Origin: Paracoccus sp. S3-43
GTDB taxonomy: Bacteria; Pseudomonadota; Alphaproteobacteria; Rhodobacterales; Rhodobacteraceae
Assembly: GCF_029027965.1 (NCBI RefSeq)
Contig: NZ_CP119082.1
Span: 1,096,001 to 1,160,000, forward strand
DNA length: 64,000 nt
Direction of reading: 5' to 3'
In this document: positions 24,918 to 48,367 of the stretch, one piece after another
Layout: each line of letters opens with the position of its first letter
Numbering within the stretch: position 1 is the stretch's first letter
Program-made: the position numbers and the translations under genes
The notes under the pieces: model-generated
Database searches by the model: none
Told to the model about the DNA's origin: nothing
The model's input: the letters and a program-made list of their open reading frames with translations, nothing else

Positions 24918-24918
24918 T

Positions 24919-26070: not shown

Positions 26071-26127
26071 AGTTTACAGGTATTGGCCTTACCTGCGCCA
26101 TGCCATCAGGAGAAGAAGGACAAGAAC

Positions 26128-28399: not shown

Positions 28400-28413
28400 G
28401 GGGTTCTCCGAAA

Positions 28414-28441: not shown

Positions 28442-28474
28442 CATTGCGGGCTGATGAATGGGGATGGGGCGCGG

Positions 28475-28761
28475 CTACGGGCTGCCGCCGAAGATCTTGA
28501 GCTTGATGGCGATGCCCGCGAGCAGCGCCAGCATGACGCCCGTGGTGATCATGCGGACGGCGGTCTGCATGGCGGTGCGGCGCACCAGGCGGATGCAGTC
28601 GACGAGCGAGCTAGATCGCGGATGTCGAGCGCGGCCTCGTCGCCGTCGAGACCGACATCGGCGAGCGCGCGCTTCGCGCCTTCCTCGGCGGCCCGGGTCA
28701 GGATCGCCTCGAATTCGGCGTCGGGCATGCGGACGAAGCCGTCGGATCGGGGTGGTGTCAT
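28475..28761 (-). pseudogene. Small phage membrane protein (DUF6127-like), frameshifted
   Basis: The frame from ATG 28761 (after AAGGAGG) reads SDGFVRMPDAEFEAILTRAAEEGAKRAL and on to ALDIRDL, then loses frame near a CTAG (28608-28613). One missing base restores SSLVDCIRLVRRTAMQTAVRM and a hydrophobic helix (MITTGVMLALLAGIAIKLKIF), ending at TAG 28475-28477. Without a frameshift the product stops at 28549 and lacks the membrane helix. The restored protein of about 95 residues resembles DUF6127-type phage proteins; beside an endolysin gene a holin-like role is conceivable. It could also be a sequencing error. Confidence 0.6.
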
Positions 28762-28781
28762 CGGGATCCTCCTTCCACCGC

Positions 28782-29858: not shown

Positions 29859-29866
29859 GGGCGTTC

Positions 29867-33832: not shown

Positions 33833-33841
33833 GTGTGGATC

Positions 33842-34288
33842 TCAGCGTTGCGGGAACAGGAAAGCGAAGGCGATGCGCCGCCGCCAGGATTGGGTGAGCG
33901 GCTCCTCGATCACGCCGAGCCGCTCGTAGGCGTGGACGAAGGCGGCGGGCGTGGTGAGGATCCCGACATGTTTGGCGATGGCCCGGGGCTTCATCCGGAA
34001 GAGGAGCAGTGCTCCGGGACCGATTTCGGCGGGCAGCACCTCGATCATCATCCGCCGCGCGCCCTCGGCCAGCACCTCGCGCGGCCCGGTTTCGCCCCAA
34101 TCGCGGCTGTAGGGCGGGATCGGGAACGGCTCGGGACCGACGACCTCGCGCCAGACGCCGCGGGCCAGCCCGAGGCAATCGCAGCCGACACCGCGCAGGC
34201 TGGCTTGGTCGTGGTACGGCGTGCCCAGCCATGACCGCGCGATGGCGATGACGCGGGCGGGGTCGGCCAATGCGAGGGGTTGCGTCAC
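33842..34288 (-). CDS. NlpC/P60 family tail peptidase (GTA gp14-like)
   Basis: 148 residues. The NlpC/P60 fold has the catalytic cysteine C38 in GVGCDCLGLARG and the histidine in KHVGIL. It is thought to open peptidoglycan during DNA entry. GTG start at 34288 overlaps the preceding stop (GTGA). The order gp12-gp13-gp14-gp15 is the same as in the Rhodobacter GTA. Confidence 0.9.
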   Translation of the reverse strand: MTQPLALADPARVIAIARSWLGTPYHDQASLRGVGCDCLGLARGVWREVVGPEPFPIPPYSRDWGETGPREVLAEGARRMMIEVLPAEIGPGALLLFRMKPRAIAKHVGILTTPAAFVHAYERLGVIEEPLTQSWRRRIAFAFLFPQR

Positions 34289-35169
34289 AGCACGCCTCCC
34301 TCGTGCCCGCCATCCTTCGTGGCGTAGCGCAGAACGGCATCCTGGCCGGGGATGTGCGGGAAACCCCGGAAGTTGGCGGTGTTCGCGAACTTCGCCCCGC
34401 AGGTCTCCATGCGCTTGTCGCAGCCCGCGCGGATGATGAAGGCGTCGCCCTCTGCGATCCCCCGCACCGGCGCTTCGAGCAGGGTCAGGATCGCCACGCC
34501 GTCCGTCGCGTCGTGGCCAAGCACCTCGGCCTGACGCCCCGCGTTGGAGCCGCTGGTCCATTCGATGGTGCCGAAAGTGAACCAGCCCGCCTCGAACCCG
34601 CCGAGCCCCGAGGCGGTGAAGGCCCGGTCGCGCAGGAGATCGATGACGGCGCCGGTTCCCTTGAAGGCGGTAGCCTCCAGCTCGACGCCGCAGCGCGCAT
34701 CGCCAAGCGCGGCATCGCAGGTCGCCTGGAAGGTCCGCCCGACCGTCTGGCCGAGCACATGGGCGAGCGACCGCACCTCGGCCACAAAGGCGAGCCGCCC
34801 GCGCCGGATCTGGCCGATGGCGCCGCGTCGCATCAGCACGCGCTGGCCCGTGTCGGCCCAGTTCACGCGCCAGACCTCGACCTCAGCGTTGTCCCAGCGG
34901 CCGTCGAGGATGTCGGTCTCGGTAATCCGGTCCGAGGTCAGCACGCCTTCGGCGTCCTGCGCATCGACCGACAGGTCGGAGCCGGAGCGCACCTCGGAGG
35001 CCGTGAGCCCGCTCGCGGGCTCGAAGTCGGTCCCGTCAAAGCTGAGCGTCCGGTCGTGGTCGGTGAAACCGAAGGTGACGCCATCGGCGCGCGTGATCCG
35101 CCAGCACCAGGCGAGCGTGGTCGTGCCCTCGTCGAGATGGGCCTGCATCGCGGGGTCGAGGGTCTTCAT
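34285..35169 (-). CDS. DUF2163 tail protein (GTA gp13-like)
   Basis: 294 residues. It matches the DUF2163/phage_BR0599 family: LDEGTTTLAWCWRITRADGVTFGFTDHD near the N terminus and a C-terminal cysteine cluster GCDKRMETCGAKFANTANFRGFPHIPG. In GTA structures it links the distal tail protein to the hub. The ATG at 35169 overlaps the preceding gene stop by four bases. Both ends are coupled to neighbours. Confidence 0.9.
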   Translation of the reverse strand: MKTLDPAMQAHLDEGTTTLAWCWRITRADGVTFGFTDHDRTLSFDGTDFEPASGLTASEVRSGSDLSVDAQDAEGVLTSDRITETDILDGRWDNAEVEVWRVNWADTGQRVLMRRGAIGQIRRGRLAFVAEVRSLAHVLGQTVGRTFQATCDAALGDARCGVELEATAFKGTGAVIDLLRDRAFTASGLGGFEAGWFTFGTIEWTSGSNAGRQAEVLGHDATDGVAILTLLEAPVRGIAEGDAFIIRAGCDKRMETCGAKFANTANFRGFPHIPGQDAVLRYATKDGGHEGGVL

Positions 35170-35792
35170 CGGCGCAGTTCCAGCAGCGGGATGGAGGTGA
35201 TCGAGCCGAGCCGCTCGAGGTCGAGCGTCACGTCGAGCGCATCGGCGTCGAAGCGGACCGGCACATCGAACTCGAAGCCCGCGGTGATCGCGACGCCAGA
35301 GCCCGGCGCCGCAGCGAAGGTGACGAGGCCCGTCGTGACGTCGACCGACCAGCCGGAGAGCTGCTCTACATCCGACAGCGCGATACGCACGGTTCCGGTC
35401 ACCGGCTTCGTGATGGCGCGTGTCCAGGACTGCGCGCCGGAGGTGTAGCGCTTGACCAGCTGAAAGGCGGTCGTCGTGCCGTCGCCTGTGCCGATCGCTT
35501 GGTCGGTGGGCGACGGCGTGCCCGAGGGCAGGCAGGACTTGTGGTCGCCCCAGTCCTTGAAGCGGAAACCGTGGAGCCGACCGTTGCGCGCTTCGAAGAA
35601 GGCGACCACCGCCGCCAGATCGTCGGCGCGGCGGATGCCGTAGGCGACATCGTAGCGGCGGCGCGAGTTGGCCCAGCTGGCGTTCCGCTCCTCGTCGCCC
35701 GAGGCGAGCTCGACGATCTGGGTGCGCCGCTCGGGCCCGCCCCGCGCGCCGCGGCTGATGTTGTCGGGGAACCGAACCTCGTGAAACGCCAT
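35166..35792 (-). CDS. DUF2460 distal tail protein (GTA gp12-like)
   Basis: 208 residues. It is recognised by FHEVRFPDNISRGARGGPERRT at the N terminus and GIRRADDLAAVVAFFEARNGRLHGFRFKDW, both typical of DUF2460. It probably forms the hexameric distal tail ring. The ATG at 35792 overlaps the tape measure stop by one base (TGATG); a GTG three bases upstream is an alternative. Confidence 0.9.
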   Translation of the reverse strand: MAFHEVRFPDNISRGARGGPERRTQIVELASGDEERNASWANSRRRYDVAYGIRRADDLAAVVAFFEARNGRLHGFRFKDWGDHKSCLPSGTPSPTDQAIGTGDGTTTAFQLVKRYTSGAQSWTRAITKPVTGTVRIALSDVEQLSGWSVDVTTGLVTFAAAPGSGVAITAGFEFDVPVRFDADALDVTLDLERLGSITSIPLLELRR

Positions 35793-38209
35793 CACATGCC
35801 CCTCCGCCCGAGCGAGACCGCACGGGCAATGTCGGCCGCAACCTGCGTGCGGGACTGCCGGAAGCTCTCGGCGTCGCGGGCCATGATGGTGACGTTGACC
35901 CCGCCGCCTGCGCCGTAGCTCTGGGCCTCGCGGCGCGACAGAACCCGCTCACCGCGCTGCAGGATCGCGGGCACCTCGTCGTGGCGAAGTCCGGCCATGC
36001 CGCCGCCATGCATGCGCGGCGCTGCGGCGAAGGCCATGGCCGGGACCATGCGGGACGACCCAGCCGAGCCGACCATGCCGCCCGCATGCAGGACGCTGGC
36101 GAAGATGCCGCCCGCCCCGGAGAACACGCCGGAGAGCGCGTTGGCGATCGGCCCGAGAATGAACCGCCGCGCCGCCAGCTGGGCGAGATCGGCGATCATC
36201 GACGTGACCATATCGCGGAAGTCGAGCTTGCCGGTCTTCACGAACTGGCCCACCGCGTTCTCGGCCGACTGGAAGGCGCCGACGAGGCTCTGGCCGATGT
36301 CGCCGCCGATCTCGCGCGCCTTGCTGGCGTAGTCCGACAGCGCCGCCGTGACCGCCTGCCAGCCGGTGACGGCGGCCTCGGTCGCGGGCTCTGCCGCAGC
36401 GGCGGCAGCTCCGGCCGCCGCGCCTGCACCTGTCGCGGCGCGGCCGGCTTCACCAAGCGCCGTCTCCAGCCGTTCGGCCGCGCCTGTGGCCTCGGTCAGC
36501 GCATCGGCGCTCGCCTCGTCGGTGCCGCGCACCGCATCGCGCAGGGCCTGCCAGCTTTCGAGTGGGGCGCGGGCCCCTTCCGCCAGATCGCGCGCGGCGC
36601 CCCTATAGAGGTTGGCGGACTCGAGCGCCCGGTTCGCCGCGTCGGTCAGACCAAGGTCGGGCGCGGTCAGCGGGTTGTCCTCGAAAGCCCTATCAAAGGC
36701 TGCCTGCGCCGCTGTCGTGGCAGCACTGGCCGCGCCCTCGAACCGGTTCTCGATCTCACCGAGGTCGAGGTCGGGCACCAGCGTGATGCGCCGCTCCGAC
36801 CCGAGCGCTTCGAGCCCTTGGTTGATGCCGCCGATGAAGCCATTGATGCGCGAGACCACGCCGTTCAGCATCGCCTCGACGCCGTCGACCAGGCTGTTTG
36901 CGGCCTGGAACGCCAGATCGCCGATGGCGGCGGGCAGCAGGCCCCAGATCGCCTTGATGGTCTCGTAGGCCCCCTCGAACGTGTTCGCGGCGGTGTTCCC
37001 GAAACCGACGACGCTCTCGATGGCGCTCTGCATGCCCGAGGCGGCGTCGGCCTTCAGATCGAAGAACATCGCCGTGGCGGCCGCACCCGCCGCCGCCGCG
37101 CCCATCCTGATCCGCTCCCAGACCTCGACGGCGACGTCCTTCAGGAGCGACATCGCCTCTCCAAAGCCGCCCGCGCCGGAGACGAGACGGGTGAACTGGT
37201 AGACGAGCTCGCCCGCACCGACGATCAGCGCGCCGATACCGGTACGGATCAGCGCCCCACGCAGAACGACCAGCGCCGTAGCGAGGCCCCGGACCGAGAG
37301 CGCCGCAGCGGCCATGCCGGCGACCCAGCGTCCCGCGAGGAAGGCGGCGAAGGTCGCGGCATAGGTGGTCAGGCGGCCGATGTTGTCGAAGAGGCCACGG
37401 ATGGCGATGCCGAGCGGCCCGGTGCGGCTGGCAACCGCCGCCATGGCGTTGGCGACGGCTTCCAGCGCGGGGGCCGCGGCGACGGCCAGCTGGTTCGACA
37501 ACCCGCGCCAGATCAGCCCGAGCCGGGAGATCGCGTCGTTCGTCCGCTCGATCTGGTCGGCATCCTGTTCAGAGACGACCACACCAAAAGCGAGCACGTC
37601 CTCTGTCGCCTGGCGCAGCGTCGCCGTGTCGATCCGCGACATGGCGATCGAGCCTTCCTCGCCGAACAGCTGACCCGCGACGGCCGCACGTTCGGCGACG
37701 GGCACGAAGCTCTCGATGGCCGCGTTGATCGCGCCGACCCGCTGATCCAGCGGCAGGGCGATAAGCTCGTTCGCCGAGAGCCCGAGCCGGTCGAGCGCAT
37801 CGGCGGCGGGGCCGGTCCCGGCGGCCGCCTGGCTGAGACGGCGCGTCAGATCCTTGGTGGCCTGCTCGATGCCGGACATGGAAACGCCCGCCAGCTCGCC
37901 CGCGCGCTCCAGCGTCTGGATCGAGGCGACCGTGGTGCCGAGCGACTGGGCGAGCTTGGCCTGCGCATCGACCGTCTGCAGCCCGGAGCGGATCATCGCC
38001 ACGCCAGCGGCTGCGGCAGCCGCCACGGCGGCAGCGGCGGCGACGCGAACCCGACGCGCGAAGCCAGCGAGCCGGGTGTTCGCCGCCTCCATCTCCCGGC
38101 TCAGCCGGCCGAAGCCGCGCGCGCCGGCCTCGCCAACACCTTCCAGTTCGGCGCGCACCTGCCGTCCGCCCACGGCGGCGAGGCGGACAGAAACGCGCTT
38201 CTCAGCCAT
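35792..38209 (-). CDS. Phage tail tape measure protein
   Basis: 805 residues, mostly helical, with long Ala-rich stretches and several hydrophobic segments (about 55-75, 255-340). The start MAEKRVSVRLAAVGGRQVRAELEGVGEAG is typical of alphaproteobacterial tape measures. It sets tail length and may help DNA eject through the inner membrane. Its start overlaps the end of the -1 frame chaperone extension by 8 nt, the expected position directly downstream of a frameshifted chaperone pair. Confidence 0.9.
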   Translation of the reverse strand: MAEKRVSVRLAAVGGRQVRAELEGVGEAGARGFGRLSREMEAANTRLAGFARRVRVAAAAAVAAAAAAGVAMIRSGLQTVDAQAKLAQSLGTTVASIQTLERAGELAGVSMSGIEQATKDLTRRLSQAAAGTGPAADALDRLGLSANELIALPLDQRVGAINAAIESFVPVAERAAVAGQLFGEEGSIAMSRIDTATLRQATEDVLAFGVVVSEQDADQIERTNDAISRLGLIWRGLSNQLAVAAAPALEAVANAMAAVASRTGPLGIAIRGLFDNIGRLTTYAATFAAFLAGRWVAGMAAAALSVRGLATALVVLRGALIRTGIGALIVGAGELVYQFTRLVSGAGGFGEAMSLLKDVAVEVWERIRMGAAAAGAAATAMFFDLKADAASGMQSAIESVVGFGNTAANTFEGAYETIKAIWGLLPAAIGDLAFQAANSLVDGVEAMLNGVVSRINGFIGGINQGLEALGSERRITLVPDLDLGEIENRFEGAASAATTAAQAAFDRAFEDNPLTAPDLGLTDAANRALESANLYRGAARDLAEGARAPLESWQALRDAVRGTDEASADALTEATGAAERLETALGEAGRAATGAGAAAGAAAAAAEPATEAAVTGWQAVTAALSDYASKAREIGGDIGQSLVGAFQSAENAVGQFVKTGKLDFRDMVTSMIADLAQLAARRFILGPIANALSGVFSGAGGIFASVLHAGGMVGSAGSSRMVPAMAFAAAPRMHGGGMAGLRHDEVPAILQRGERVLSRREAQSYGAGGGVNVTIMARDAESFRQSRTQVAADIARAVSLGRRGM

Positions 38210-38866
38210 TGGAATGATCCATCTGTTCGTTGAGTTTGGCGACCATCACCGCTTCGATGACGGGCAGCAGTTCGGCCATGGCCAGCGGGGGCACGCCGAG
38301 CGCGTCACCGAGCCCCAGCGCCGCCGACATGTCCCAGCCGATCACCGCGCCGGGCAACACGCGGAGTTGTCCGCCGAGGCGGCCGACCAGGTCCCAGACC
38401 TGCCAACCCTCCGGCGTTTCCGGACGGTTCAGCCGCGCCGGGCAGTCCGGGCAGGCTTGCGGGCAGGCTTGGCAGTAGCGCTCGCCCCCGCCGAAGGACC
38501 ATTCGGCGAGGGCGCGGAGGCGTTTTTTTCCTGCTCCAGCAGCAGACCCTTGGAGACGTAGGTCAGCTGGAACGCCTCGAAGATCGGCCAGATGTCGAGC
38601 AGCGCGTCGATGGCCTCGGGGCTCGGATCGATGGGGTTGCCGTCCGCGTCCCCGATGCCCTCCCAGGCGAGCACCGCCCGCCGCGCCAGCGCCTTGGCGA
38701 AGGCGACCGCGCGCTCCTCGTCGGAAGCCTCCTCGGGCACCGCCTCGACGACCGGATCGCTGCGGGTCGCCACCATCAGCGCCGTGGTCAGCGGGCGCAG
38801 CTCCACGCGGACGCCGGGTGCAAGATCATGCCAGCGCGGTTCATTCGTCAGGTCGAGCGTGAGCAT
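38202..38866 (-). CDS. Tail assembly chaperone, predicted -1 frameshift product (GT-like)
   Basis: Predicted fusion of about 221 residues: 115 from the ATG at 38866 to the slippery site, then 106 in the -1 frame to TGA 38202-38204. The -1 part has no start of its own and contains a CxxCxxxCxxC cluster (YCQACPQACPDCPARLNRPE), then GWQVWDLVGRLGGQLRVLPG and PPLAMAELLPVIEAVM, ending just inside the tape measure start. Lambda G/GT and many siphophages make the same kind of pair at this position. The frame arithmetic is exact; frameshifting itself is inferred. Confidence 0.7.
38429..38866 (-). CDS. Tail assembly chaperone, zero-frame product (G-like)
   Basis: 145 residues. N-terminal beta-rich part (LTLDLTNEPRWHDLAPGVRVELRPL), then helices typical of GTA gp10-type proteins (AVAFAKALARRAVLAWEGIGDADG, PEAIDALLDIWPIFEAFQLTYV). 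The tail after LLLEQEKN is low-complexity Ala/Lys/Pro, as expected for sequence downstream of a frameshift site. It lies 2 nt downstream of the tail tube gene. Confidence 0.8.
   Translation of the reverse strand: MLTLDLTNEPRWHDLAPGVRVELRPLTTALMVATRSDPVVEAVPEEASDEERAVAFAKALARRAVLAWEGIGDADGNPIDPSPEAIDALLDIWPIFEAFQLTYVSKGLLLEQEKNASAPSPNGPSAGASATAKPARKPARTARRG
38522..38530 (-). promoter_or_regulatory. Slippery heptamer A AAA AAC for programmed -1 frameshifting
   Basis: On the minus strand the chaperone codons GAA AAA AAC contain X-XXY-YYZ in the correct phase. Slipping one base back gives AAA AAA and then the -1 frame codon CGC. No other run of seven A occurs in the tail genes. Confidence 0.72.
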
Positions 38867-38868
38867 CG

Positions 38869-39810
38869 TCAATACACCTCGATGTCGTTGATCAGGGTTG
38901 CGGTGCACATCCGGCCGACCACGCTGTCCCGAGCGGCCTGCCAGTCGAAGGTCGCCTGCACCCCCTGCGGCCCGGAGATCTCGATCCGCGGGCGCGGCAG
39001 GTAGACGGCGTGCACGGTGAAGGTGAAGCTCTCGCCGGACGGCAGGACATAGGCGAATTCCATCTCGCAAGCCTCGCCGTTGATCGCCTGCGTCACCAGC
39101 GTCTGGTCGGCAAAGCGCACCTCGATCCGACCCGTGAGCGCCGCAATGGACGGGTCCGCGCCGTCGATGCGCCCGTCCGAGCGGATCGTCTCGATCCGGT
39201 CGAGGTTGTTGGCATAGGTGATGTCGGCCGAGACCACGTTGCCGAGGGCGGTGCCATTGCGCGTGATCGCGCCGTTGAAATGACCGAAGCGCTTCAGCTC
39301 CAGCGCGGCAGGCGTCCCGGCGCCGGTCGTCGTGCCCACCGTCTCGCCCTGCGCCACCAGCCGCGCCGTCGCGGTCAGCAGGCCCGAGCGCTGCATCTGC
39401 CAGGTGATCTGGTCGAGCACGCAGCCGGAATACATCGCATAGCGCGGAACCTCCGGCATGCCGGTTTCGATCGACATGCTGGGCAGCGTCCACGACCCCG
39501 ACTGGAACTCGTGGCTGTACGGCGCTTCCGCGCCCGTGGTCGTCGGCGCGCCGAAGGCCGCCTTCAGCCAGAAGCCGAAGGCCTCCGCGTCGAGCGGCAC
39601 GACGACATCGCCGTCGGCCGTCACCGCATCCTTGATCGGCGCCAGCGGATCACGACCGTAGCCCAGCAGTTCCGAGTTCAGCAGCGGTTGCTCCGCGCCG
39701 AGCGAGGTGCTGGCGAAGGGCATGCGGGTGAAGCCGCCCACGGGCGGCGTTCCATAGGTCGTCTCGAACGCAAGCGCCATCAGCGCCCGCGCCCCCTGGG
39801 CTCGTGCCAT
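38869..39810 (-). CDS. Phage tail tube (major tail) protein
   Basis: 313 residues, beta-rich. N-terminal ALMALAFETTYGTPPVGGF is typical of lambda gpV/TTP-like tail tube proteins of alphaproteobacterial phages; the C-terminal half (SFTFTVHAVYLPRPRIEISGPQG) may be an Ig-like or second tube domain. Its position, after the tail-completion gene and immediately before the chaperone pair, fits. Start ATG at 39810 with GGAGAA upstream. Confidence 0.85.
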   Translation of the reverse strand: MARAQGARALMALAFETTYGTPPVGGFTRMPFASTSLGAEQPLLNSELLGYGRDPLAPIKDAVTADGDVVVPLDAEAFGFWLKAAFGAPTTTGAEAPYSHEFQSGSWTLPSMSIETGMPEVPRYAMYSGCVLDQITWQMQRSGLLTATARLVAQGETVGTTTGAGTPAALELKRFGHFNGAITRNGTALGNVVSADITYANNLDRIETIRSDGRIDGADPSIAALTGRIEVRFADQTLVTQAINGEACEMEFAYVLPSGESFTFTVHAVYLPRPRIEISGPQGVQATFDWQAARDSVVGRMCTATLINDIEVY

Positions 39811-39834
39811 GGTGTTCTCCTCGGGTTTTCGGGG

Positions 39835-40251
39835 TCAGGCCAGCGGGTCGGCCGTGGAATAGTGCAGGACCACCGGGATCACGGCGGCCTTCAGGCTAGC
39901 CGCGCCCTCGACCGGCAGATCGACGGGCCGTGGCGCTTCCGCCTCGACCCAGTCGCAGAGCCCGCCCAGTGTCCGGTCGGCGACGAGCGCTGTGCCGATG
40001 CTGGCGCAGAGGGTGTCGAAGGCGGTGTCGCGGTCGGAGCCCTGCACGACCGCCTCGATCTCGGCCCGGTGCTGGTAGTGGTAGCGCAGCGGCGACAGCG
40101 TTACCTCGGGCTCGCCTGGTTCGCCGTCGCGCAGGATCAGGAGGCCCTCGGCCGGGACACGCTCGGGCAGCACCTCACCGCGCAGGGCGGTCGCGGGCAG
40201 CGCTGAGAGCCGCGCGTGCAGCGCGGCGAGGATGGTTTCGCGAGGTGTCAT
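39835..40251 (-). CDS. Tail completion/terminator-like protein
   Basis: 138 residues: MTPRETILAALHARLSALPA, then LRYHYQHRAEIEAVVQGSDRDTAFD and a C-terminal VDLPVEGAASLKAAVIPVVLHYST. Homologues lie between the head-tail connector and the tail tube in this phage type (sometimes oddly labelled acyl-CoA transferase); lambda gpU/DUF3168-like function is inferred. Its ATG overlaps the stop of merR (ATGA at 40248-40251), so it now sits directly behind a mercury regulator gene and not behind a phage gene. Confidence 0.75.
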   Translation of the reverse strand: MTPRETILAALHARLSALPATALRGEVLPERVPAEGLLILRDGEPGEPEVTLSPLRYHYQHRAEIEAVVQGSDRDTAFDTLCASIGTALVADRTLGGLCDWVEAEAPRPVDLPVEGAASLKAAVIPVVLHYSTADPLA

Positions 40252-40673
40252 GGGTCGGCCGAGTTGGAAATCGCGTCGAGCACCGGACAATCGGGGACTT
40301 CGGCGCCCGAACACCTGGATGCAGTTGTAGCGAGGACGGATTCGATACGCCGAAGATCCGCGATCCTCGCGCGGACATCGGCAAGGTGCCGCTCCGTCCG
40401 TTCCTTGACCTCGGCGCAGGTCGGCGCGGCGCCGTCGCCGAGCCCCATCAGCCCGCGGATGTCCTCCATCGAGAACCCGAGTTCGCGGGCGCGCAGGATG
40501 AAGCGGAGGCGTGTGGCGTGTGCGGCGGAATAGACCCGGTAGCCGGCGTCCGTGCGGGGCGGGTCGGGCAGCAGGCCGGTCTTCTCGTAATAGCGGATCG
40601 TCTCGATGTTGCAGCCGGTCGCCCGGGCCAGGTCGCCGCGTGTGAAGCCGCTCTCGCGCTCGTGATCGGTCAT
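40248..40673 (-). CDS. merR: Mercuric resistance transcriptional regulator MerR
   Basis: 141 residues. The N-terminal helix-turn-helix (FTRGDLARATGCNIETIRYYEKTGLL) is MerR-type. The three mercury-binding cysteines are C86 (PTCAEVKE), C121 and C129 (RCSGAEVPDCP). It represses merTPFA without Hg(II) and activates by twisting the promoter when Hg(II) binds. The start at 40673 (MTDHERESGF) is preferred to the longer frame at 40727, which would cover the promoter. Its stop overlaps the start of the phage tail-completion gene (ATGA). Confidence 0.92.
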   Translation of the reverse strand: MTDHERESGFTRGDLARATGCNIETIRYYEKTGLLPDPPRTDAGYRVYSAAHATRLRFILRARELGFSMEDIRGLMGLGDGAAPTCAEVKERTERHLADVRARIADLRRIESVLATTASRCSGAEVPDCPVLDAISNSADP

Positions 40674-40687
40674 GGGCAAGTTTCCTC

Positions 40688-40718
40688 TTGAGCCTGTAGT
40701 TGCTACAGACCCTACACC
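40688..40718 (+). promoter_or_regulatory. MerR-regulated merT promoter with operator dyad
   Basis: TTGAGC (40688-40693) and TACACC (40713-40718) are separated by 19 nt, the overlong spacer typical of MerR promoters. The spacer contains the dyad CTGTAG-TTG-CTACAG (40694-40708). merT starts 31 nt after the -10. Confidence 0.85.
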
Positions 40719-40749
40719 CATCGTCAATCACAGACGAGAGGTGCGCGAC

Positions 40750-41139
40750 ATGGCGCTGACAGACGACAGAACGGACAGCACGGGCGCGGATCGCCCCGCC
40801 CGAAAGGGCTGGCTCGCGGCGGGCGGTGTGGTGGGCGCCTTTCTCGCCTCGGCCTGCTGCATCGGGCCGCTGGTGCTTCTGACTCTCGGCATCTCGGGCG
40901 CCTGGATCGGCAACCTGACGGCTCTGGAGCCTTACAAGCCGATCTTCGCCGTGATCGCGCTCGGCTTCATCGCGGCGGGTTTCTGGCAGGTCTATTTCCG
41001 CAAGCCAACCGTCTGCGAACCCGGTTCCTACTGCGCAAGGCCAGCATCGGCGCGCATCACCAAGTCGGCTCTCTGGGCCTCCCTGATCCTCGTTCTCGCA
41101 GCCCTCACCATCGACTGGTGGGCCCCGCTTCTCTACTGA
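40750..41139 (+). CDS. merT: Mercuric ion transporter MerT
   Basis: 129 residues with three transmembrane helices (about 22-45, 67-80, 105-125). The first-helix cysteine pair is C36-C37 (SACCIGP) and the cytosolic-loop cysteines are C89 and C95 (CEPGSYC), as in classical MerT. It takes Hg(II) from periplasmic MerP and brings it to MerA. The start at 40750 (MALTDDRTD), with GAGAGG upstream, is preferred to 40672. Confidence 0.93.
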   Translation: MALTDDRTDSTGADRPARKGWLAAGGVVGAFLASACCIGPLVLLTLGISGAWIGNLTALEPYKPIFAVIALGFIAAGFWQVYFRKPTVCEPGSYCARPASARITKSALWASLILVLAALTIDWWAPLLY

Positions 41140-41157
41140 CCCCGAAAGGACATCCAC

Positions 41158-41463
41158 ATGAAGAAGATCCTTGCACTCGCCTTGTTCGGCCTGACCGCCG
41201 TTGTGCCGATCACCGCCATCCCTGTTGCCGCGCAGACCGTCGCCGCCGAGCAGACCGTCACCTTCGCGGTGGACAACATGACCTGCGCGCTCTGCCCAGT
41301 CACCGTGAAGCGTGCGATGGAGGGCGTCGCGGGCGTGCGCGCCGTCGAGATCGACTTCGATGCCCGCACCGCCACGGTGATCTTCGACACCGCCGCGACG
41401 AGCGCCGACGCCATCGCGACCGCGTCGGCCAATGCAGGCTACCCGGCGCGTGTCGCGGGCTGA
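41158..41463 (+). CDS. merP: Periplasmic mercuric ion-binding protein MerP
   Basis: 101 residues. A signal peptide (about 1-25, ending PVAAQ) is followed by a heavy-metal-associated domain with the Hg-binding motif MTCALC (C43, C46). It scavenges Hg(II) in the periplasm and passes it to MerT or MerF. It lies 18 nt after merT. Confidence 0.95.
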   Translation: MKKILALALFGLTAVVPITAIPVAAQTVAAEQTVTFAVDNMTCALCPVTVKRAMEGVAGVRAVEIDFDARTATVIFDTAATSADAIATASANAGYPARVAG

Positions 41464-41467
41464 CGAG

Positions 41468-41701
41468 ATGACCGAGCAGTCCGACCGCAAGCTGATCGCG
41501 ACAGGGATCGTCGGCACCGTCATCGCGGCGCTCTGCTGCTTCACTCCGGTGCTGGTGGTGCTTCTGGGTGCCGTGGGCCTGTCGGCCTGGCTGGGTTGGC
41601 TCGACTACGTTCTGCTGCCCGCGCTCGCCTTTTTCGTCGCGCTGACCGTGTACGCGGTCTGGAGACGGCAGCGGCGCCAGACCACTCGAACGGATGGATG
41701 A
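41468..41701 (+). CDS. merF: Mercury transporter MerF
   Basis: 77 residues with two transmembrane helices (about 9-30 and 36-62). The first helix has the vicinal cysteines C23-C24 in ALCCFTPVLV. The C-terminal second cysteine pair of canonical MerF is not present; the tail is RRQRRQTTRTDG. The ATG at 41468, 4 nt after merP, is chosen over 41432. It overlaps merA by 8 nt. Having both MerT and MerF gives two import routes. Confidence 0.87.
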   Translation: MTEQSDRKLIATGIVGTVIAALCCFTPVLVVLLGAVGLSAWLGWLDYVLLPALAFFVALTVYAVWRRQRRQTTRTDG

Positions 41702-43130
41702 CTTGATGAAAGACGATTGCTGCGCGCCCAAGGGCGATTTCGACCTTGCCGTGATCGGCGCCGGATCGGCCGGGTTCTCGGCCGCGATCACCGCCGCCGA
41801 GGGAGGCAAGCGCGTCGCGCTGATCGGCCATGGCACCATCGGCGGGACCTGCGTGAACGTGGGCTGTGTGCCCTCCAAGACGATGATCCGGGCCGCGGAA
41901 GCCCTGCACGGTGCGCAGACAGCACATCGGTTCCCGGGCCTGAACAGCGAGGCGCAGGTCGCCGACTGGTCGGCGCTGATTGCGGCCAAGGACGATCTTG
42001 TCGCGACACTGCGCCAGAAGAAGTACGCCGATCTGCTGCCGGGCTACGGCGGTGTGACCTATCTCGACGAGGGTCCGGCGCGTCTCGTCCTCGGCGGGGT
42101 CGAGGTCGGCGGGCGCAGGATCACGGCTCCCAAGGTGATCGTCGCGACCGGTGGCCGACCCGCCGTGCCCGACATCCCTGGGATCCAGGACGCACCAACG
42201 CTCGACAGCACGTCGCTGCTGGAGCTGGACCGGTTGCCCGAAAGCCTGATCTTCCTCGGCGGCGGCTACATCGGCGTGGAGCTGGCGCAGATGATGGCGC
42301 GGATGGGCACCCGCGTCACCATTGTCTGCCGCTCGCGCCTGCTGCCGCGCACAGAGCCGGAGGTGTCCCGGGCGCTGACGGAGACGCTGCGCGCCGAGGG
42401 CGTCGCGGTTGTCGATGGCGCGACCTACGACGCCGCACGGCGCGACGGGGCCCGTGCGGTCCTGACGGTGACGGTGGACGGCGCAGACCGCGATCTGACG
42501 GCCGACCGCCTCGTCCTGACGACGGGACGCGCAGCCAACACCGAGGGGCTGGGCCTCGCGGAGATGGGCGTCGAGACCGACGCGCGTGGCGCGATCCGGG
42601 TGGGCGACGACATGCAGACCACGAAGGCCGGCATCTTCGCGGCGGGCGATGTGACCGACCGCGACCAGTTCGTCTACATGGCCGCCTATGGCGCCAAGCT
42701 CGCGTCCCGCAACGCCGTTCTGGGCGGGGCGGAGCGCTACGACAACGCCGCGATGCCGTGGGTGGTGTTCACCGATCCGCAGGTCGCCGGCGTCGGGCTG
42801 ACCGAGGCGCAGGCGCGCGCCGCGGGTCATGACGTCAAGACCAGTGTGCTGACGCTCGACAACGTGCCCCGCGCGCTCGCCGCCCGCGACACGCGCGGCC
42901 TGATCAAGCTCGTCGCGGACCGGGCGACCGACCGCCTCCTGGGCGGCGTGATCATGGCGCCGGAGGGAGCCGACAGTGTCCAGACGCTCGCCATGGCGCT
43001 CAAGTTCGGCATGACGACAAAGGCGCTCGGCGAGACGATCTTCCCCTATCTGACCACGGTAGAGGGGCTGAAGCTCGCCGCGCAGACCTTCGACAAGGAT
43101 GTCGCGAAGCTGTCGTGCTGCGCGGGGTAA
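41694..43130 (+). CDS. merA: Mercuric reductase MerA
   Basis: 478 residues. A flavin-disulfide reductase that reduces Hg(II) to volatile Hg(0) with NADPH. FAD motif GAGSAG (about 22-27), redox-active C53 and C58 in GGTCVNVGCVPSK, and the C-terminal vicinal pair C475-C476 (LSCCAG) that receives Hg(II). The N-terminal heavy-metal domain found in Tn501 MerA is missing; only a short DDCCAPK leader with a CC pair remains. The start may be 41694 or the ATG at 41706. Confidence 0.95.
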   Translation: MDDLMKDDCCAPKGDFDLAVIGAGSAGFSAAITAAEGGKRVALIGHGTIGGTCVNVGCVPSKTMIRAAEALHGAQTAHRFPGLNSEAQVADWSALIAAKDDLVATLRQKKYADLLPGYGGVTYLDEGPARLVLGGVEVGGRRITAPKVIVATGGRPAVPDIPGIQDAPTLDSTSLLELDRLPESLIFLGGGYIGVELAQMMARMGTRVTIVCRSRLLPRTEPEVSRALTETLRAEGVAVVDGATYDAARRDGARAVLTVTVDGADRDLTADRLVLTTGRAANTEGLGLAEMGVETDARGAIRVGDDMQTTKAGIFAAGDVTDRDQFVYMAAYGAKLASRNAVLGGAERYDNAAMPWVVFTDPQVAGVGLTEAQARAAGHDVKTSVLTLDNVPRALAARDTRGLIKLVADRATDRLLGGVIMAPEGADSVQTLAMALKFGMTTKALGETIFPYLTTVEGLKLAAQTFDKDVAKLSCCAG

Positions 43131-43180
43131 CCCGAGCCGTCGGTTTCGTGGCTGCCGAGCAAGATTGCGCATCGATGCGA

Positions 43181-43810
43181 TCACAACCTACCCCCCACCC
43201 AGTTCGCCACGATCAGCCCCGGCACGCTGTCCAACGCCCGGTCTGCATCCCGCGCCAGATCCAGCCGCTTCGGCAGCTTGACCTGCGGCACCAGCAGGAA
43301 GATCGGCGCAGTGACCTTTCCGCGCCCGGTCTTCGACCGCGACACCACCGCCTGGCCTTTCGTGTTCAGCCGCCCCTCGGCGACCAGCAGGCTGGGGCCC
43401 GTCCGGCGATAGACGAAACGCAGGCGGAGGCCGCGTCGCCGCTCCCATTCACCGGGGGTGATCCGGCCGCCGCGCAGGGATTTGCCCGCCGCGGGCAGCG
43501 GGATCGCCAGCCAGAACCCGTTCTTCGATCGGATCAGCGGCCCGGTGTCATGCGCACCGACGATTACCGGCGCCTTCGACCAGACCAGCGCCGCAGCCTC
43601 AAGGCTCTCGCCCGACCTCGGGAAGTTCTGGCTCCGGATCGAGTTGGCGAGCCGTGTACCAAGCCCCGCGCCGGTGATCTGCAACCGCCACGCCGTCTTC
43701 AGCCCAGTCCCGGCCTCGCGAATGGCGGCGGTGACGGCCCGTTCACCCGCCGCGACCTCGGCCGCCATCATCGCGACGATGTCGGGATCGATGTCGAGCT
43801 TCAGTTTCAC
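43181..43810 (-). CDS. DUF6441 phage tail/connector protein
   Basis: 209 residues starting with GTG at 43810, which overlaps the preceding stop (GTGA). The sequence KLKLDIDPDIVAMMAAEVAAGERAVTAAIREAG, then WRLQITGAGLGTRLANSIRSQ, fits DUF6441, with a likely HK97 gp10-type tail-completion role. Its stop at 43181 lies 50 nt from the merA stop (convergent). In the ancestral phage the next gene would be that at 39835-40251. Confidence 0.75.
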   Translation of the reverse strand: MKLKLDIDPDIVAMMAAEVAAGERAVTAAIREAGTGLKTAWRLQITGAGLGTRLANSIRSQNFPRSGESLEAAALVWSKAPVIVGAHDTGPLIRSKNGFWLAIPLPAAGKSLRGGRITPGEWERRRGLRLRFVYRRTGPSLLVAEGRLNTKGQAVVSRSKTGRGKVTAPIFLLVPQVKLPKRLDLARDADRALDSVPGLIVANWVGGRL

Positions 43811-44118
43811 GCGGGCCTCAGGTCGACGGTCCAGACCAGCCGCTCGCGGTCGCGGACCGGCTCGCCCTGTATGAGGAAGGCGTCGCCGTCGATCTCGATG
43901 CGGTCGCCGGGACGCGGGTTCGCCACCTCGGCCACGCGCAGGTCGATCCGGGTGGTTTCGGACCAGAGCCGCGCGTCGCCGAAGTCGGTGACCGCGTCGG
44001 CGCGACGGGCGACGGCACGCACCAGCACGGGTGTACCGCCGTCGGCGATGTAGACCGCGTCCCGGCCGATGTTCGGATCGGCGAAGAGCGCGCCGATGGC
44101 GGCGGCGAAGGCCGACAT
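43807..44118 (-). CDS. Head-tail joining protein (lambda FII-like)
   Basis: 103 residues. SAFAAAIGALFADPNIGRDAVY, then a beta-rich segment (GDRIEIDGDAFLIQGEPVRD) resembles gpFII/phage tail attachment proteins. It lies between the capsid decoration gene and DUF6441, where the head-tail connector is expected. Its ATG overlaps the DUF2190 stop by one base (TGATG). Confidence 0.7.
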   Translation of the reverse strand: MSAFAAAIGALFADPNIGRDAVYIADGGTPVLVRAVARRADAVTDFGDARLWSETTRIDLRVAEVANPRPGDRIEIDGDAFLIQGEPVRDRERLVWTVDLRPA

Positions 44119-44453
44119 CAGAACGTCGCGTTCAGGCGCACCCGGCCGATGGTGTCGCCGGCGCCGCTCGCCACCGCCTCGACGGCCGCGCCGATGAGGG
44201 TGTTGTCGGTCGCGACGGTCGTGGTGCGCTTGTTGGTGTCGTCCCAATAGACCTTGGCGCCAACCGTCCACGCCTGGGAGCCGACCTTGGTGATGTCGAA
44301 CACGCCGACGAGCGCGGTCTCGACGGGCTCGCCAATGGCGGCGGCACCCGCGGCGATGCCGAAGATGGAGCCGACGAGCAGGCCATCGCCGGAGGCGACG
44401 GCATAGGGCGCGGTCAGGGTGATGGTGTTGCCGGGCTGGACGTAGGTTTTCAT
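44118..44453 (-). CDS. DUF2190 capsid cement/decoration protein
   Basis: 111 residues. YVQPGNTITLTAPYAVASGDGLLVGSIFGIAAGAA is the characteristic DUF2190 start, and GAKVYWDDTNKRTT also fits. DUF2190 proteins decorate the capsid, stabilising expanded heads. It is 74 nt downstream of the capsid gene, with a hairpin between. Confidence 0.88.
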   Translation of the reverse strand: MKTYVQPGNTITLTAPYAVASGDGLLVGSIFGIAAGAAAIGEPVETALVGVFDITKVGSQAWTVGAKVYWDDTNKRTTTVATDNTLIGAAVEAVASGAGDTIGRVRLNATF

Positions 44454-44479
44454 GATGGGGATCCTCGTGGAAAGACGAA

Positions 44480-44501
44480 GGGCGGCCCGTCAGGACCGCC
44501 C
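44480..44501 (-). terminator. Hairpin between capsid and decoration genes
   Basis: GGGCGG (44480-44485) and CCGCCC (44496-44501) can pair around a 10-nt loop. No clear T run follows on the minus strand, so it may be an attenuator or mRNA processing/stability hairpin. Confidence 0.4.
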
Positions 44502-44527
44502 GTGTGTCAGGGTTCAGGAAGCGCGCC

Positions 44528-46582
44528 TTACGCGCCCGGGTTCTTGTAGAGGCCGCGCCAGTCGATGGCCTTGGCTCCGAAGTCGAGGCGGCACTTGATC
44601 TCGACCCCGTCGACGTCGAAGCCGTTGCGCGTCTCGATATAGGCGCCCTGCTGGCCCTCGAGATAGGCGTACTCGATGGTGTCGATCTGGTTCGGGCTGG
44701 CCGCCAGATACCAGGCGGTCTCGCTGGCGGCGTCGAGCCGGGGCTCGCTGATCGGCGCCAGCGTCCTGATCGACTGCGGCACCACGCTGGACGTCGCGGC
44801 GGGCACGAGGTTCTGGGCCACCAGCTGTTCGGCTTTCAGTTCCAGTGAGGCCGGCACGATCAGGAAGGCAGGCCGGACGTTCAGCACCGTCTTCTTGTCG
44901 AGGCCGGTCTGCTTGGCCATCGCCGCGCGCGCCGCTCCGACGCTGCTGACATCGAGCGCCGCGCCGGTGCCTGCCAGGTTCTTGTGGGTGGTGTGGAAGA
45001 GCGCATTGCCGTCGGCCATCGCCGGGTTGGCGGTGATGATGCCCCAGACCACGTCCGACTCCAGCTGGGCGATGGAGTTGCCGTACATCGCCGGGATGCG
45101 GGTGAAGGCGTCGAGATCGTCGTTGATCAGCGTCTGACGGGTGATGGCGACCACCCGGCCATAGGTCTTGACCTTGTAGCTCTCCTTGCTCTCGCCCAGC
45201 GTGCCGCGCTTGAACTCGCCGCTTTCGCCGACCTCGAGCAGCTGCGGGGCTTCGCCGAGCTGGACGCGATGCATCGCCTTGAAGTCGGTCGCCAGCACCT
45301 GGCGACAGAACAGCATGAAGGTGCGGGGATAGGCCTCGTAGGCCTGCCGCAGCGTCTTGTTGGTGACGGCCGACAGGATCTCGGGGAAGTCCGAGGTCGA
45401 GTGCAGCGCGCGCGTCGCCACCTCGTCACGCGACAGGCCGCGCGTGTTGACCCCGGCATTGCCGAGGCTTTCGCGGGCGAGCTCCAGCAGCGTCATGCCG
45501 CGATACTGGCGCGCGGCGTCCTCGAGCTGGAACAGCGTTGGGCTGTAGCGGTGCAGCAGTGCGTTCGCCACCGCGTCACGGCGGGTGATGCACTCGTCTC
45601 GGCCGCCGAGCGGGACGGAGACATGGGGGAAGTTCCGGGTCTCGTCGGATTTCGCGGCGACCTGGTCGAGGATCAGTCGGCGGGACTCGTCGATGCTGAC
45701 GCCGCGCTTGACCAGATCCTCGGCGAAGCCGCGCTCGAGGTTCAGCCGCCCGGCCAGATCGTAAATGGTGGAGACGCGGTCGCGCTCGGCCTCGCGGGCG
45801 CGGGTGGCGACCACTTCGGTATCGGGCGCGGGAGTTACCTGCGTCTTCTGGCTGCGCGTCTCGCTGGCCGCGACCTTCGGGTCGGGCGCAGCCGGTTTCG
45901 GCTCGGTCATGGGGGTGTCCTCGGTTTCGACCGGCGCGGTCGGCTGGGTGTTGGCGGGGGTTGCGGCGTCGCTCGCCGGGGTCTGGGTCGTGTCCGTCAT
46001 CGGGATCGGTCCTTTCGTGGTGGAAGGGGCGTCCCGGCGGTGGAGGACGCAGTCGTGAAGGGGGTGCTGGGCGCGGAAGCCCGCTGCTGGGTCGGCTCCG
46101 ACCGCGACGGCGGAGACCTCGAAGGGCGTCCAGTCCACCGCGCGCCAGAGCTCGCGGGCGCCATCAGGCTTCGAGATATCAAACCGGTGGACCTGGTAGC
46201 CGATGGAGACGGCGCGGATGTGCCCCGCCTGGATGTCGCGCCAGATCGGCTCGACATCGGCACGCTCGCTGATCCGGACCAAGGCGATGCCGCGACCGTT
46301 CTCGATCCGGGCCGAGCCCGGCACGACCGAGCCGATCACCGCGTCGAGCGTGTCGAGCTCGTGCACCTTCAGGAACGGCGCGCCCGCGTTCAGCCGGTCG
46401 AGCCGGACATGGGCCGGGTCGAGGCTGAGTTCCTCGTCATAAGGCTCGCCGAAGAAGGTGGCACGGCGGACGCGAGCCCCGGCCGACCAGACCACCTCGA
46501 CGGTGCGGTTGTCGGCATCGGCCGTGTTCGGCGCAAGCTCCGCCGACCGGCGCATGGCCGGCAGTTCGATCATCGTGTCCAT
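44528..46582 (-). CDS. Prohead protease/major capsid protein fusion
   Basis: 684 residues. Residues 1-200 are a prohead-protease domain (AGARVRRATFFGEPYDEELSL, GHIRAVSIGYQVHRF, AVDWTPFEVSAVAVGADPAAG). An Ala/Pro/Thr-rich linker with a predicted scaffold-like part follows (about 205-310), and the rest is a capsid domain (MTLLELARESLGNAGVNTRG through IKCRLDFGAKAIDWRGLYKNPG). Such fusions of protease and capsid are known in this phage type; the protease probably cleaves the linker during maturation. Start ATG at 46582. No separate capsid gene is present. Confidence 0.88.
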   Translation of the reverse strand: MDTMIELPAMRRSAELAPNTADADNRTVEVVWSAGARVRRATFFGEPYDEELSLDPAHVRLDRLNAGAPFLKVHELDTLDAVIGSVVPGSARIENGRGIALVRISERADVEPIWRDIQAGHIRAVSIGYQVHRFDISKPDGARELWRAVDWTPFEVSAVAVGADPAAGFRAQHPLHDCVLHRRDAPSTTKGPIPMTDTTQTPASDAATPANTQPTAPVETEDTPMTEPKPAAPDPKVAASETRSQKTQVTPAPDTEVVATRAREAERDRVSTIYDLAGRLNLERGFAEDLVKRGVSIDESRRLILDQVAAKSDETRNFPHVSVPLGGRDECITRRDAVANALLHRYSPTLFQLEDAARQYRGMTLLELARESLGNAGVNTRGLSRDEVATRALHSTSDFPEILSAVTNKTLRQAYEAYPRTFMLFCRQVLATDFKAMHRVQLGEAPQLLEVGESGEFKRGTLGESKESYKVKTYGRVVAITRQTLINDDLDAFTRIPAMYGNSIAQLESDVVWGIITANPAMADGNALFHTTHKNLAGTGAALDVSSVGAARAAMAKQTGLDKKTVLNVRPAFLIVPASLELKAEQLVAQNLVPAATSSVVPQSIRTLAPISEPRLDAASETAWYLAASPNQIDTIEYAYLEGQQGAYIETRNGFDVDGVEIKCRLDFGAKAIDWRGLYKNPGA

Positions 46583-46587
46583 GAAGG

Positions 46588-48156
46588 TCAGTCCTGTTGG
46601 TCGGCCTGCGCCGGGTCTGTATCCGCGTCGGCGGTCGGGTCGTCGGCGTCTGGTTCGTCGGCGGCCGGATCGTTCGCCGGATCGCTGGCCCCGTCTTTGG
46701 ATTGTGCGCTGCCGGTCTTGGTGACGCGGCGAGGGTCGCTGTCGAGGACCAACCCCAGCGCGTCGAGCTTGGCGTTGGTCGCCGCGATCTCGGCCAGCAC
46801 GGCGTCGGGGTTGCGGCCCTGCCGGGCGATCACCTCGGCCAGCGTCATGGTGCCCGAGCGGATGGACAGCAGGTTCGCCATCGCGTCCTTCTGCGGATCG
46901 ACCGCCTCGAACTTCGGCGGCGACCATTCCACAGGCACGATCGGCGACGGGATCTGCCCCGCCGCCCATGCGGCTTCCGTGAACCACCGCCACACCGGGG
47001 CGCAGAACATCGGGATGAACAGCTGCCATTGGACGGCGTCGATCTGGCGGCGGAACTCCACGAGACCCGCCCGGATCGAGGAGTAGTTCACTTGGGACAG
47101 GTCCCCCGTCAGCAGCTCGTAGGGCACGCGGAAGCCTGCCGAGATCGTGTGCAGGCTCGCGCGCTTGTATTCGCCGTAGCCGCCCGTCGCCGAGGGCTGG
47201 TTGAAGCGGATGTCCTTGCCGCCGCGGGCATAGGCGATCAGCCCCGGCTCGAACTGTTCCACCCGGTTGCCGTCGGCATCGACCACGGAGGGCGCGATGC
47301 CCTGTTGCGCCTCGTCGTCGCCGAAGACGATGGCGGTGACGCAGGCCTCGGTCTTCTTGCGAACCAGTTCGGCCACTTCATAGTCGTCGAGATCACGCAA
47401 CGACCGGATCACCGGCGCGCCCCAGGGGACGCCGCGCGCTTGCGTGCGCTGCTTCTCGTAGACATGGGCGATCTCGGTCGCGGGGACCGGGCGGCTCTGC
47501 AACCCGTTCTGCAAGGCCCCGTAGGCGTCGCCCGGATGCTCGGCATGCAGCCAGTAAGCCCGGCGCTTCCCGACCGGGTCGAACTCGATCCCCTGCACGA
47601 GGCGCCCTGCGCCGAGGGCTCCGGACTTGGTGGCGTCGAGGAAGTCGGCTTCCAGCACCTGCAATTGCAGCGGCACCGGCAGGCCGTCGCTCGCGCGCCG
47701 CAGGCGGCGGCGCACCAGAACCTCGCCCGCCTCGACCATCTCCCGGCAGATCAGCGTCTGCAGGCCATAGAAGTCAAGCTGGCCATCGGCGTCGCAGTCC
47801 GCCGTCCAGCGTTCGAAGAGCGCATCGACCTTCCGGTCCAGCTTGTCGTCGCCGCTAGCGGCGCGGGGCATGATGCCCGCGCCGATGATGTTGTTGACCA
47901 GCACCGCCACGGCCTTGGCCGCATGCGGGTTGTTGCGCACCAGATCGCGCATGCGGTCGCGCAGCAGCGCCCCGGCGACGCCGATTTCGGTGTCGGCCGA
48001 GGATCCCGGCGCGCGCCAGCCGTCCGTCCGTCGCCCGCGCGCCGCGCCGTCATAGCCACGCGTCAGCGTCTCGAATGCCTGACGCGCCATCACGCGCCGA
48101 GCCGCCATGCGCGGCGCCACCGTGGCGATGGCGTGGTCGAACCAGGTCGCCGACAT
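46588..48156 (-). CDS. Phage portal protein, lambda gpB family
   Basis: 522 residues. Portal-family motifs include RNNPHAAKAVAVLVNNIIG, FYGLQTLICREMVEAGEVLVRRR and QVNYSSIRAGLVEFRRQIDAVQ. It forms the dodecameric DNA channel at the capsid vertex. The C terminus is an acidic Asp-rich tail. Its ATG overlaps the gpW-like stop by one base (TGATG), and the capsid gene starts 5 nt after its stop. Confidence 0.94.
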   Translation of the reverse strand: MSATWFDHAIATVAPRMAARRVMARQAFETLTRGYDGAARGRRTDGWRAPGSSADTEIGVAGALLRDRMRDLVRNNPHAAKAVAVLVNNIIGAGIMPRAASGDDKLDRKVDALFERWTADCDADGQLDFYGLQTLICREMVEAGEVLVRRRLRRASDGLPVPLQLQVLEADFLDATKSGALGAGRLVQGIEFDPVGKRRAYWLHAEHPGDAYGALQNGLQSRPVPATEIAHVYEKQRTQARGVPWGAPVIRSLRDLDDYEVAELVRKKTEACVTAIVFGDDEAQQGIAPSVVDADGNRVEQFEPGLIAYARGGKDIRFNQPSATGGYGEYKRASLHTISAGFRVPYELLTGDLSQVNYSSIRAGLVEFRRQIDAVQWQLFIPMFCAPVWRWFTEAAWAAGQIPSPIVPVEWSPPKFEAVDPQKDAMANLLSIRSGTMTLAEVIARQGRNPDAVLAEIAATNAKLDALGLVLDSDPRRVTKTGSAQSKDGASDPANDPAADEPDADDPTADADTDPAQADQQD

Positions 48157-48365
48157 CAGCGATCCCCGCGCGAGAAGCCAGCGAGCCCCGCCACGGGCAG
48201 CGGGCGGCTGAAGCCCGCGATGGCGCGCTCGATGGTCCGGATGCGGGCGAGCAGATCCTCGGCCGAGCCGTAATCCACCGACTTGCCGTCATAGCTGACG
48301 CGCGTCGTGCCGCTGGCATAGGCCCGGCGCAGCGCCGAAAGCTCGGTTTCCGTCCAGTCGATCAT
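48156..48365 (-). CDS. Head-tail connector gpW-like protein
   Basis: 69 residues: MIDWTETELSALRRAYASGTTRVSYDGKSV and GSAEDLLARIRTIERAI. This is the pattern of the small gpW family in alphaproteobacterial phages, needed to join heads to tails. The start at 48365 is preferred; an in-frame ATG at 48377 overlaps the terminase end. Its place between terminase and portal matches lambda (A-W-B). Confidence 0.88.
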   Translation of the reverse strand: MIDWTETELSALRRAYASGTTRVSYDGKSVDYGSAEDLLARIRTIERAIAGFSRPLPVAGLAGFSRGDR

Positions 48366-48367
48366 GT

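Follow-up and report, generated by a model that had tools for sequence, protein, structure and literature searches.

A mercury-resistance operon as the probable content of a cargo slot in the tail module of alphaproteobacterial temperate phages

Introduction

How does a complete mercury-resistance (mer) operon come to lie inside the tail module of a prophage? The question is raised by a 64,000-nucleotide stretch of Paracoccus sp. S3-43 (hereafter the window; positions 1,096,001-1,160,000 of a single-contig 3.22 Mb genome, G000:C1), where five mer genes at 40248-43130 separate a phage gene encoding a DUF6441 protein from the tail terminator gene. The spread of metal resistance is usually credited to plasmids and transposons. 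Excerpts of a metagenome study (PMC11128244) place such metal-resistance genes on non-viral elements only. An initial sequence-only reading took the operon for a phage-borne moron that could spread resistance by lysogenic conversion. We find that the site is far more general, and consider it very likely that mer is the present content of a cargo slot that opened once in a temperate tailed phage family of Alphaproteobacteria, and whose cassettes are swapped through the genes on either side.

Results

The junction is filled throughout a phage clade

A search for DUF6441 homologues over 61 genomes found the gene in 19 of them, at 55 places, of which 49 were analysed (48 retrieved plus the window; the six left out were short fragment matches). 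Adding the best 80 loci from genome contigs and the best 80 from viral contigs gave 209 loci, 195 of them with both flanking genes and some retrieved twice; all samples were seeded with the DUF6441 protein of the window's phage. An insert lies between the two flanking genes in 188 of the 195, ranging from 372 to 6753 bp and falling into 98 nucleotide clusters. Pair and tree counts below refer to the 155 distinct filled loci with complete flanks, which hold 96 cargo clusters; the other 33 were omitted as duplicates or for incomplete flanks.

The remaining seven of the 195 loci are empty, with a gap of -9 to -13 between the flanking genes, and belong to distant relatives whose DUF6441 proteins are 38-70% identical. 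RcKai, an isolated Rhodobacter phage, has a 4-bp overlap between the two tail genes (its genes 12 and 13), and the pair likewise overlaps in a phage labelled as a Nostoc phage. The expectation that these genes should be adjacent was therefore borne out, and both the uninterrupted junctions and the further mer-bearing phages that the sequence-only reading had proposed to look for were found. As in phage morons, extra genes lie here between genes that are adjacent in related phages. We also note that phages labelled as infecting Nostoc and Synechococcus (L250, PP438413.1) have tail genes resembling those of these alphaproteobacterial phages, so that their host labels call for caution.

The neighbouring junctions of the same phages served as a control. 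Spacing within -100 to 200 bp was found for 149/153 head-tail attachment-DUF6441 pairs, 113/114 cement-attachment pairs, 138/149 terminator-tail tube pairs and 101/106 head-cement pairs, and for 0/155 slot junctions. On a FastTree tree of the DUF6441 and terminator proteins (164 rows, cargo excluded), a single change splits filled from empty loci, none of the empty loci is nested among the 155 filled ones and no reversion is seen; the slot opened once.

Several observations weigh against so simple a picture. Inserts longer than 350 bp also occur at the neighbouring junctions, at 11/149 terminator-tube pairs and at 5/106, 4/153 and 1/114 of the others. Two filled loci (L049 and L078) have DUF6441 proteins only 68-70% identical, as low as in some empty loci, and the terminator gene was not found in 14 of the 209 loci, 11 of which lie within 2.3 kb of a contig end. 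The share of mer (24 of 188 filled loci, 19 of 155 distinct ones) is inflated, because the samples were seeded with the DUF6441 protein of the window's own phage. One slot (L263, 3627-8322) holds a diverged mer operon together with ~1.1 kb between merR and the terminator gene, and is a case of stacked cargo. Finally, all 94 of the 94 pairs with DUF6441 proteins at least 99% identical have their cargo in common, indicating that there is no immediate scrambling.

Unrelated cassettes share one site

The inserts mostly comprise one to three genes on either strand, as judged by open reading frame (ORF) scoring, and their G+C content is often below that of the locus. Pfam scans took in 142 of the 155 listed cargo ORFs and gave the best 25 of 26, 42, 29 and 29 families; the assignment of families to ORFs was confirmed for ten proteins, four further cargo proteins and the first members L032 and L164, and the remaining cluster members were assigned through DNA clustering. 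By these scans, the slot carries metal cassettes other than mer: a chromate transporter with ChrB (chrA/chrB; one cluster with 10 loci, of which 6 are distinct), cation efflux proteins with an HMA domain next to an ArsR-family regulator in two clusters (7 loci, 6 distinct), a cassette with an SBF transporter in 3 loci (2 distinct), and cation efflux with a metal-sensing repressor in L184. The SBF transporter family includes arsenite exporters. Other cargos comprise a sulphate permease (L137), a putative AbiC (L033), ParD/ParE (the L046 cluster), DarT, NADAR, HEPN, GmrSD, RES and further defence- or toxin-antitoxin-like families; PADLOC was applied to 38 of the 142 ORFs. Of the 40 filled loci in the sample of relatives, 11 belong to metal-cassette clusters (mer 5, chromate 2, cation efflux 2 and SBF 2). 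Many unrelated cargos thus occupy one locus between conserved flanks. At three loci (L036, L072 and L144) no terminator gene was found within ~8-12 kb downstream of DUF6441, which may reflect either very large cargo or a rearranged tail module.

This diversity bears directly on the view that mer entered once, by chance, at a site with no special role. The constant edges of the mer inserts (2922-2923 bp in 21 of 24 loci and 2119 bp in the other 3) speak for it, but the 98 cargo clusters share the same junction, and three different non-mer cargos lie there at three further DUF6441 loci in the genome to which the window belongs. We regard a single chance moron as highly improbable; of the moron view, the phage-borne nature of mer stands, while its one-off character does not, the site being a general slot with 98 clusters in 188 filled loci.

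Cassettes move independently of their flanks

Near-identical cassettes were found between diverged flanking genes in four pairs of loci: L120/L129 (cargo 0.996 identical; DUF6441 0.917, terminator 0.905), L052/L223 (0.997; 0.912, 0.891), L100/L198 (0.988; 0.875, 0.905) and L058/L094 (0.984; 0.897, 0.888). Such cassettes between flanks that are 87-92% identical imply swapping through recombination in the flanks, and cargo has thus been exchanged independently of them. The drop-off in identity lies tens to hundreds of bp from the cassette edge, at varying distance, inside the flanking genes, a pattern that homologous recombination fits better than precise site-specific cassette exchange; the latter is disfavoured, some room for it being left by pairs in which the distance is 10-30 nt. 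Mapped on the tree, cargo type requires at least 119 changes for 96 types (floor 95), and the 24 repeated types, found in 83 loci, require 47 (floor 23). The pair L067/L196 was dropped as an example of divergent flanks, the L067 terminator match covering residues 5-73 only. These two loci, together with L115 and L119, carry a 614-bp cargo that is 99.7-100% conserved despite differing flanks and for which ORF scoring gave no clear gene.

The mer operon appears functional

Pfam matches to all five products (Table 1) upheld the sequence-only reading of complete merR, merT, merP, merF and merA genes. The overlap of merR with the terminator gene as ATGA, also noted in that reading, was likewise seen (merR stop 40248-40250, terminator start 40249-40251). 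The promoter that it had called intact has a -35 hexamer TTGAGC (40688-40693) and a -10 hexamer TACACC (40713-40718) separated by a 19-bp spacer, with a perfect dyad, CTGTAG-TTG-CTACAG, at 40694-40708. In an alignment of 15 operons from the window and 14 loci (one an identical copy), whether carried by a phage or not, both dyad arms and the -35 hexamer are invariant in 15/15 and the -10 hexamer in 12/15. The closest solved structure to MerR is 4ua1, with three cysteines aligned and CadR chains close behind; we take 4ua1 to be the Bacillus MerR and the three aligned cysteines to be those that bind Hg. MerA has no HMA domain at its N-terminus; its closest solved relative is the mercuric reductase 5x1y, and it conserves the CVNVGC pair and the C-terminal CC. 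The operon therefore combines a MerR regulator, transporters and a MerA reductase with its catalytic cysteines. In comparison with the diverged slot copies L059, L101 and L108, the ratio of nonsynonymous to synonymous substitution rates, where defined, is 0.02-0.20 in 14 of 15 mer gene comparisons, and no stop codons were found in the mer genes. The conserved catalytic residues and promoter, the low ratios and the lack of stops make the operon look functional. Three other loci (L093, L159 and L160, of which L159 seems to be the identical locus to L093) carry 2119-bp mer inserts without most of merT, merP and most of merF.

As judged by sequence, the cassette brings its own promoter, as expected of a phage moron. 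A consensus scan of 39800-43900 returned no terminators, against 1.3 expected by chance, and no sigma-70 promoter with the 16-18 nt spacers that it covers, being blind to the MerR promoter, whose spacer has 19.

No transposon ends surround mer, which probably has met the phages more than once

The mer operon may derive from a transposon, given that a close operon on a Celeribacter plasmid adjoins TniB, TniQ and Mu-transposase-like genes; other operons sit on other plasmids. One could accordingly see the insert as the remnant of a mer transposon, for example of the Tn5053/Tn402 type, that landed in the tail module and lost its ends, and the interleaving of slot and non-slot merA on the tree would suit this. 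The insert itself (2923 bp) is taken up by the five mer genes and leaves no space for transposition genes. The longest word that its edges have in common, direct or inverted, is 7 nt, the level of random stretch pairs, and a repeat scan found no repeat of at least 13 nt matching both edges. The ~92% identity to the plasmid mer operons of Ruegeria and Phaeobacter extends over merR-merA only, and unrelated cargos use the same edges. A transposon remnant therefore seems quite unlikely, and the earlier statements that neither a transposase nor terminal inverted repeats are present, and that the context differs from that of Tn21/Tn501, both hold.

Well-supported branches force at least two changes between slot and non-slot merA, which argues against a single entry of mer into phages; because the two interleave, mer has probably moved into or out of the slot on more than one occasion. 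Separately, an unverified phage-labelled contig from human faeces (L248, MT835550.1) carries a mer operon ~69% identical, with no match to the structural genes of the window's phage in the 20.8 kb examined.

Nearly identical mer phages occur in two orders

The 2923-bp mer insert recurs at 14 named loci (L079-L092), with DUF6441 99-100% identical, in Rhodovulum, Tropicimonas, Hoeflea, three Paracoccus, Jiella, Roseibium, Amaricoccus, Histidinibacterium and four metagenome bins. The mer cassette and DUF6441 are 99-100% identical not only among the Rhodobacterales genera Paracoccus, Rhodovulum, Tropicimonas, Amaricoccus and Histidinibacterium but also in Jiella, Roseibium and Hoeflea. Along 16.6 kb, identity to the phage of Paracoccus marcusii (L082) is at least 99.2% in 28/28 bins for Amaricoccus and Histidinibacterium, 27/28 for Roseibium and 26/28 for Jiella; the first two are, like P. 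marcusii, Rhodobacterales, and Jiella and Roseibium are Hyphomicrobiales. The mer phages of Rhodovulum, Tropicimonas and Hoeflea are mosaics with stretches 84-95% identical to that of P. marcusii. The mer phage is thus nearly identical across several genera and two orders, a distribution from which its spread is inferred; the sequence itself shows mer as cargo of a phage, with no transposon ends around it. The phage in the window is a recombinant: it equals the widespread phage across the head genes, the cassette and the terminator gene up to ~30 nt from the slot edge of that gene, and is only ~85-91% alike on the tail side.

Contamination or misassembly could in principle have placed mer in phage tails, and 4 of the 14 named loci (L083, L087, L089 and L091) are metagenome bins, which are prone to mis-binning. 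Against this, the junction is present in the single-contig window genome and twice in one 3.62 Mb contig (G036), and of 390 genomes of the order, which may overlap with the named loci, 5 span it at 99% or more (the genome of the window included, all at least 90% complete), 1 at 92% and 2 at 80%. Sequence at the end of the Jiella contig has far better matches in other families (to E 1e-166) than in its own (best 9e-34), the latter being represented by only 4 of 289 sampled genomes; the same comparison for the Hoeflea contig end is weak. Because the same junction recurs in many independent assemblies, we give an artefact, which the sequence-only reading had named as its possible undoing, practically no weight. 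The two G036 copies (C1, 425036 and 3609659) have identical DUF6441 and merA proteins.

The prophage looks like a complete temperate phage

The minus-strand genes of the prophage extend from an endolysin-like peptidase gene (27725) to the terminase (50371), with the tail, slot and head genes in between; to the right of the terminase follow methyltransferase, exonuclease, helicase, primase-like and Sak4-like genes (Table 1). Past the window end lies a serine integrase gene (L239, 6349-7674) accompanied by a DUF2924 gene, and a gene for a type I (HsdM) methyltransferase comes next. With integrase, packaging, head, tail and lysis genes all present, the element looks like a complete temperate phage with a serine integrase.

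The alternative of a domesticated prophage, in which mer is selected by the host and particles are no longer made because the insert disturbs the tail module, draws on the position of the insert within the late gene cluster, to which merTPFA is opposed. Yet both flanking genes are complete and intact, as had been stated. All 155 distinct loci in the clade have an insert at the slot, and almost identical phages across genera and orders require recent transfer. We consider domestication unlikely, and retain the reading of mer as phage cargo.

Table 1 Features of the window; Pfam queries began at 40753 for merT (one codon past the ATG) and at 41465 for merF (one codon ahead of the ATG)
Feature	Position	Strand	Evidence
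FtsH	17392-19224		
Clp ATPase	19348-22194		
Thioredoxin	25855-26070		
Na/H exchanger	26083-27273		
Tail module (tail tube, chaperone, tape measure, tail assembly/tail proteins) and endolysin-like peptidase	27725-39810	-	
Tail terminator gene, one slot edge	39835-40251	-	PHROG 4204, 1.4e-43
merR	40248-40673	-	Pfam MerR-DNA-bind, 1.5e-20
MerR-type promoter of merTPFA	40688-40718	+	TTGAGC, 19-bp spacer, TACACC
merT, mercuric transport protein	40750-41139	+	Pfam MerT, 2.2e-30
merP, periplasmic mercury-binding protein	41158-41463	+	Pfam HMA, 5e-13
merF, mercury transporter	41468-41701	+	Pfam Transport_MerF, 3.4e-26
merA, mercuric reductase	41694-43130	+	Pfam Pyr_redox_2, 1.1e-62
DUF6441 gene, other slot edge	43181-43810	-	Pfam, 3e-46; PHROG 6367
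Head and packaging module (head-tail attachment, cement, head/protease fusion, portal, terminase large subunit)	43807-50371	-	
Cas4-domain exonuclease gene	59017-59784		
Sak4-like single-strand annealing protein	62626-63501	-	

Two further features of the window are recorded here. One protein (53438-54832) joins a ParB-like domain to a DNA methyltransferase, and directly left of the prophage (15395-27273) lie three HSP20 genes, FtsH, a Clp ATPase, thioredoxin and a Na/H exchanger, a stretch that we take to resemble a transmissible locus of stress tolerance.

Discussion

We propose that the overlap between the DUF6441 and tail terminator genes was broken once, that the slot so opened has since always been filled with small cassettes in this clade, and that these are exchanged through homologous recombination within the conserved tail genes that flank it. 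Such swaps probably take place between co-resident prophages with a phage annealing protein assisting, the Sak4-like protein being a candidate driver. In a lysogen, MerR at its own divergent promoter should turn on merTPFA upon entry of Hg(II), and the prophage would therefore confer mercury resistance on its host; in lytic growth, late transcription should read through the cassette, and particles would carry the resistance onwards. We see even odds that the tail-completion module of this family has a cartridge site that never closes: after a single opening it would have been kept full and been reloaded by recombination, its cassettes for metal resistance, defence or toxin-antitoxin functions travelling as units across genera and orders. 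If so, phages, alongside plasmids and transposons, would count among the important carriers of mercury and chromate resistance in Alphaproteobacteria, and the lack of empty sites would reflect either selection against an empty slot or the impossibility of restoring one.

One phage family thus carries mercury, chromate and cation-efflux cassettes in a single fixed slot. It offers a natural series of phages differing in cargo, in which the tolerance of the tail module, cassette exchange and the payoff of lysogeny under metal stress could be tested.

Among the open-licence papers found for mer-bearing prophages, for prophages of Paracoccus or Rhodobacteraceae, for phage hotspots and for morons, no title or abstract describes the slot. 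The nearest to it, Decewicz et al. (2019; PMC6536676, in excerpts), reported ten Paracoccus prophages with metal-resistance genes, among them an arsB that two 99% identical prophages share and that is oriented against the structural genes around it; this arsB may be the L041/L042 cassette. Unlike the slot described here, those excerpts name no mer operon, mention a mercury transporter once and contain no hotspot or insertion wording.

Three known systems invite comparison. In Tn21/Tn501/Tn5053-type transposons, merR is divergent from merT, P, F and A. The slot operon has this same layout but is without their transposition genes or end repeats. The morons of lambdoid and other temperate phages are accessory genes with their own promoter, lie between late genes and are expected to act in the lysogen. 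The slot mer likewise has its own promoter between late genes, whereas here one fixed junction is filled in 155 of 155 distinct loci with 96 cargo clusters, one of them a five-gene metal-resistance operon. In the defence-gene hotspots of P2-like phages and P4 satellites, a fixed locus between conserved phage genes has high cargo turnover; the slot shares both properties but belongs to another phage family and another site, DUF6441/tail terminator, with metal resistance as a recurrent class of cargo.

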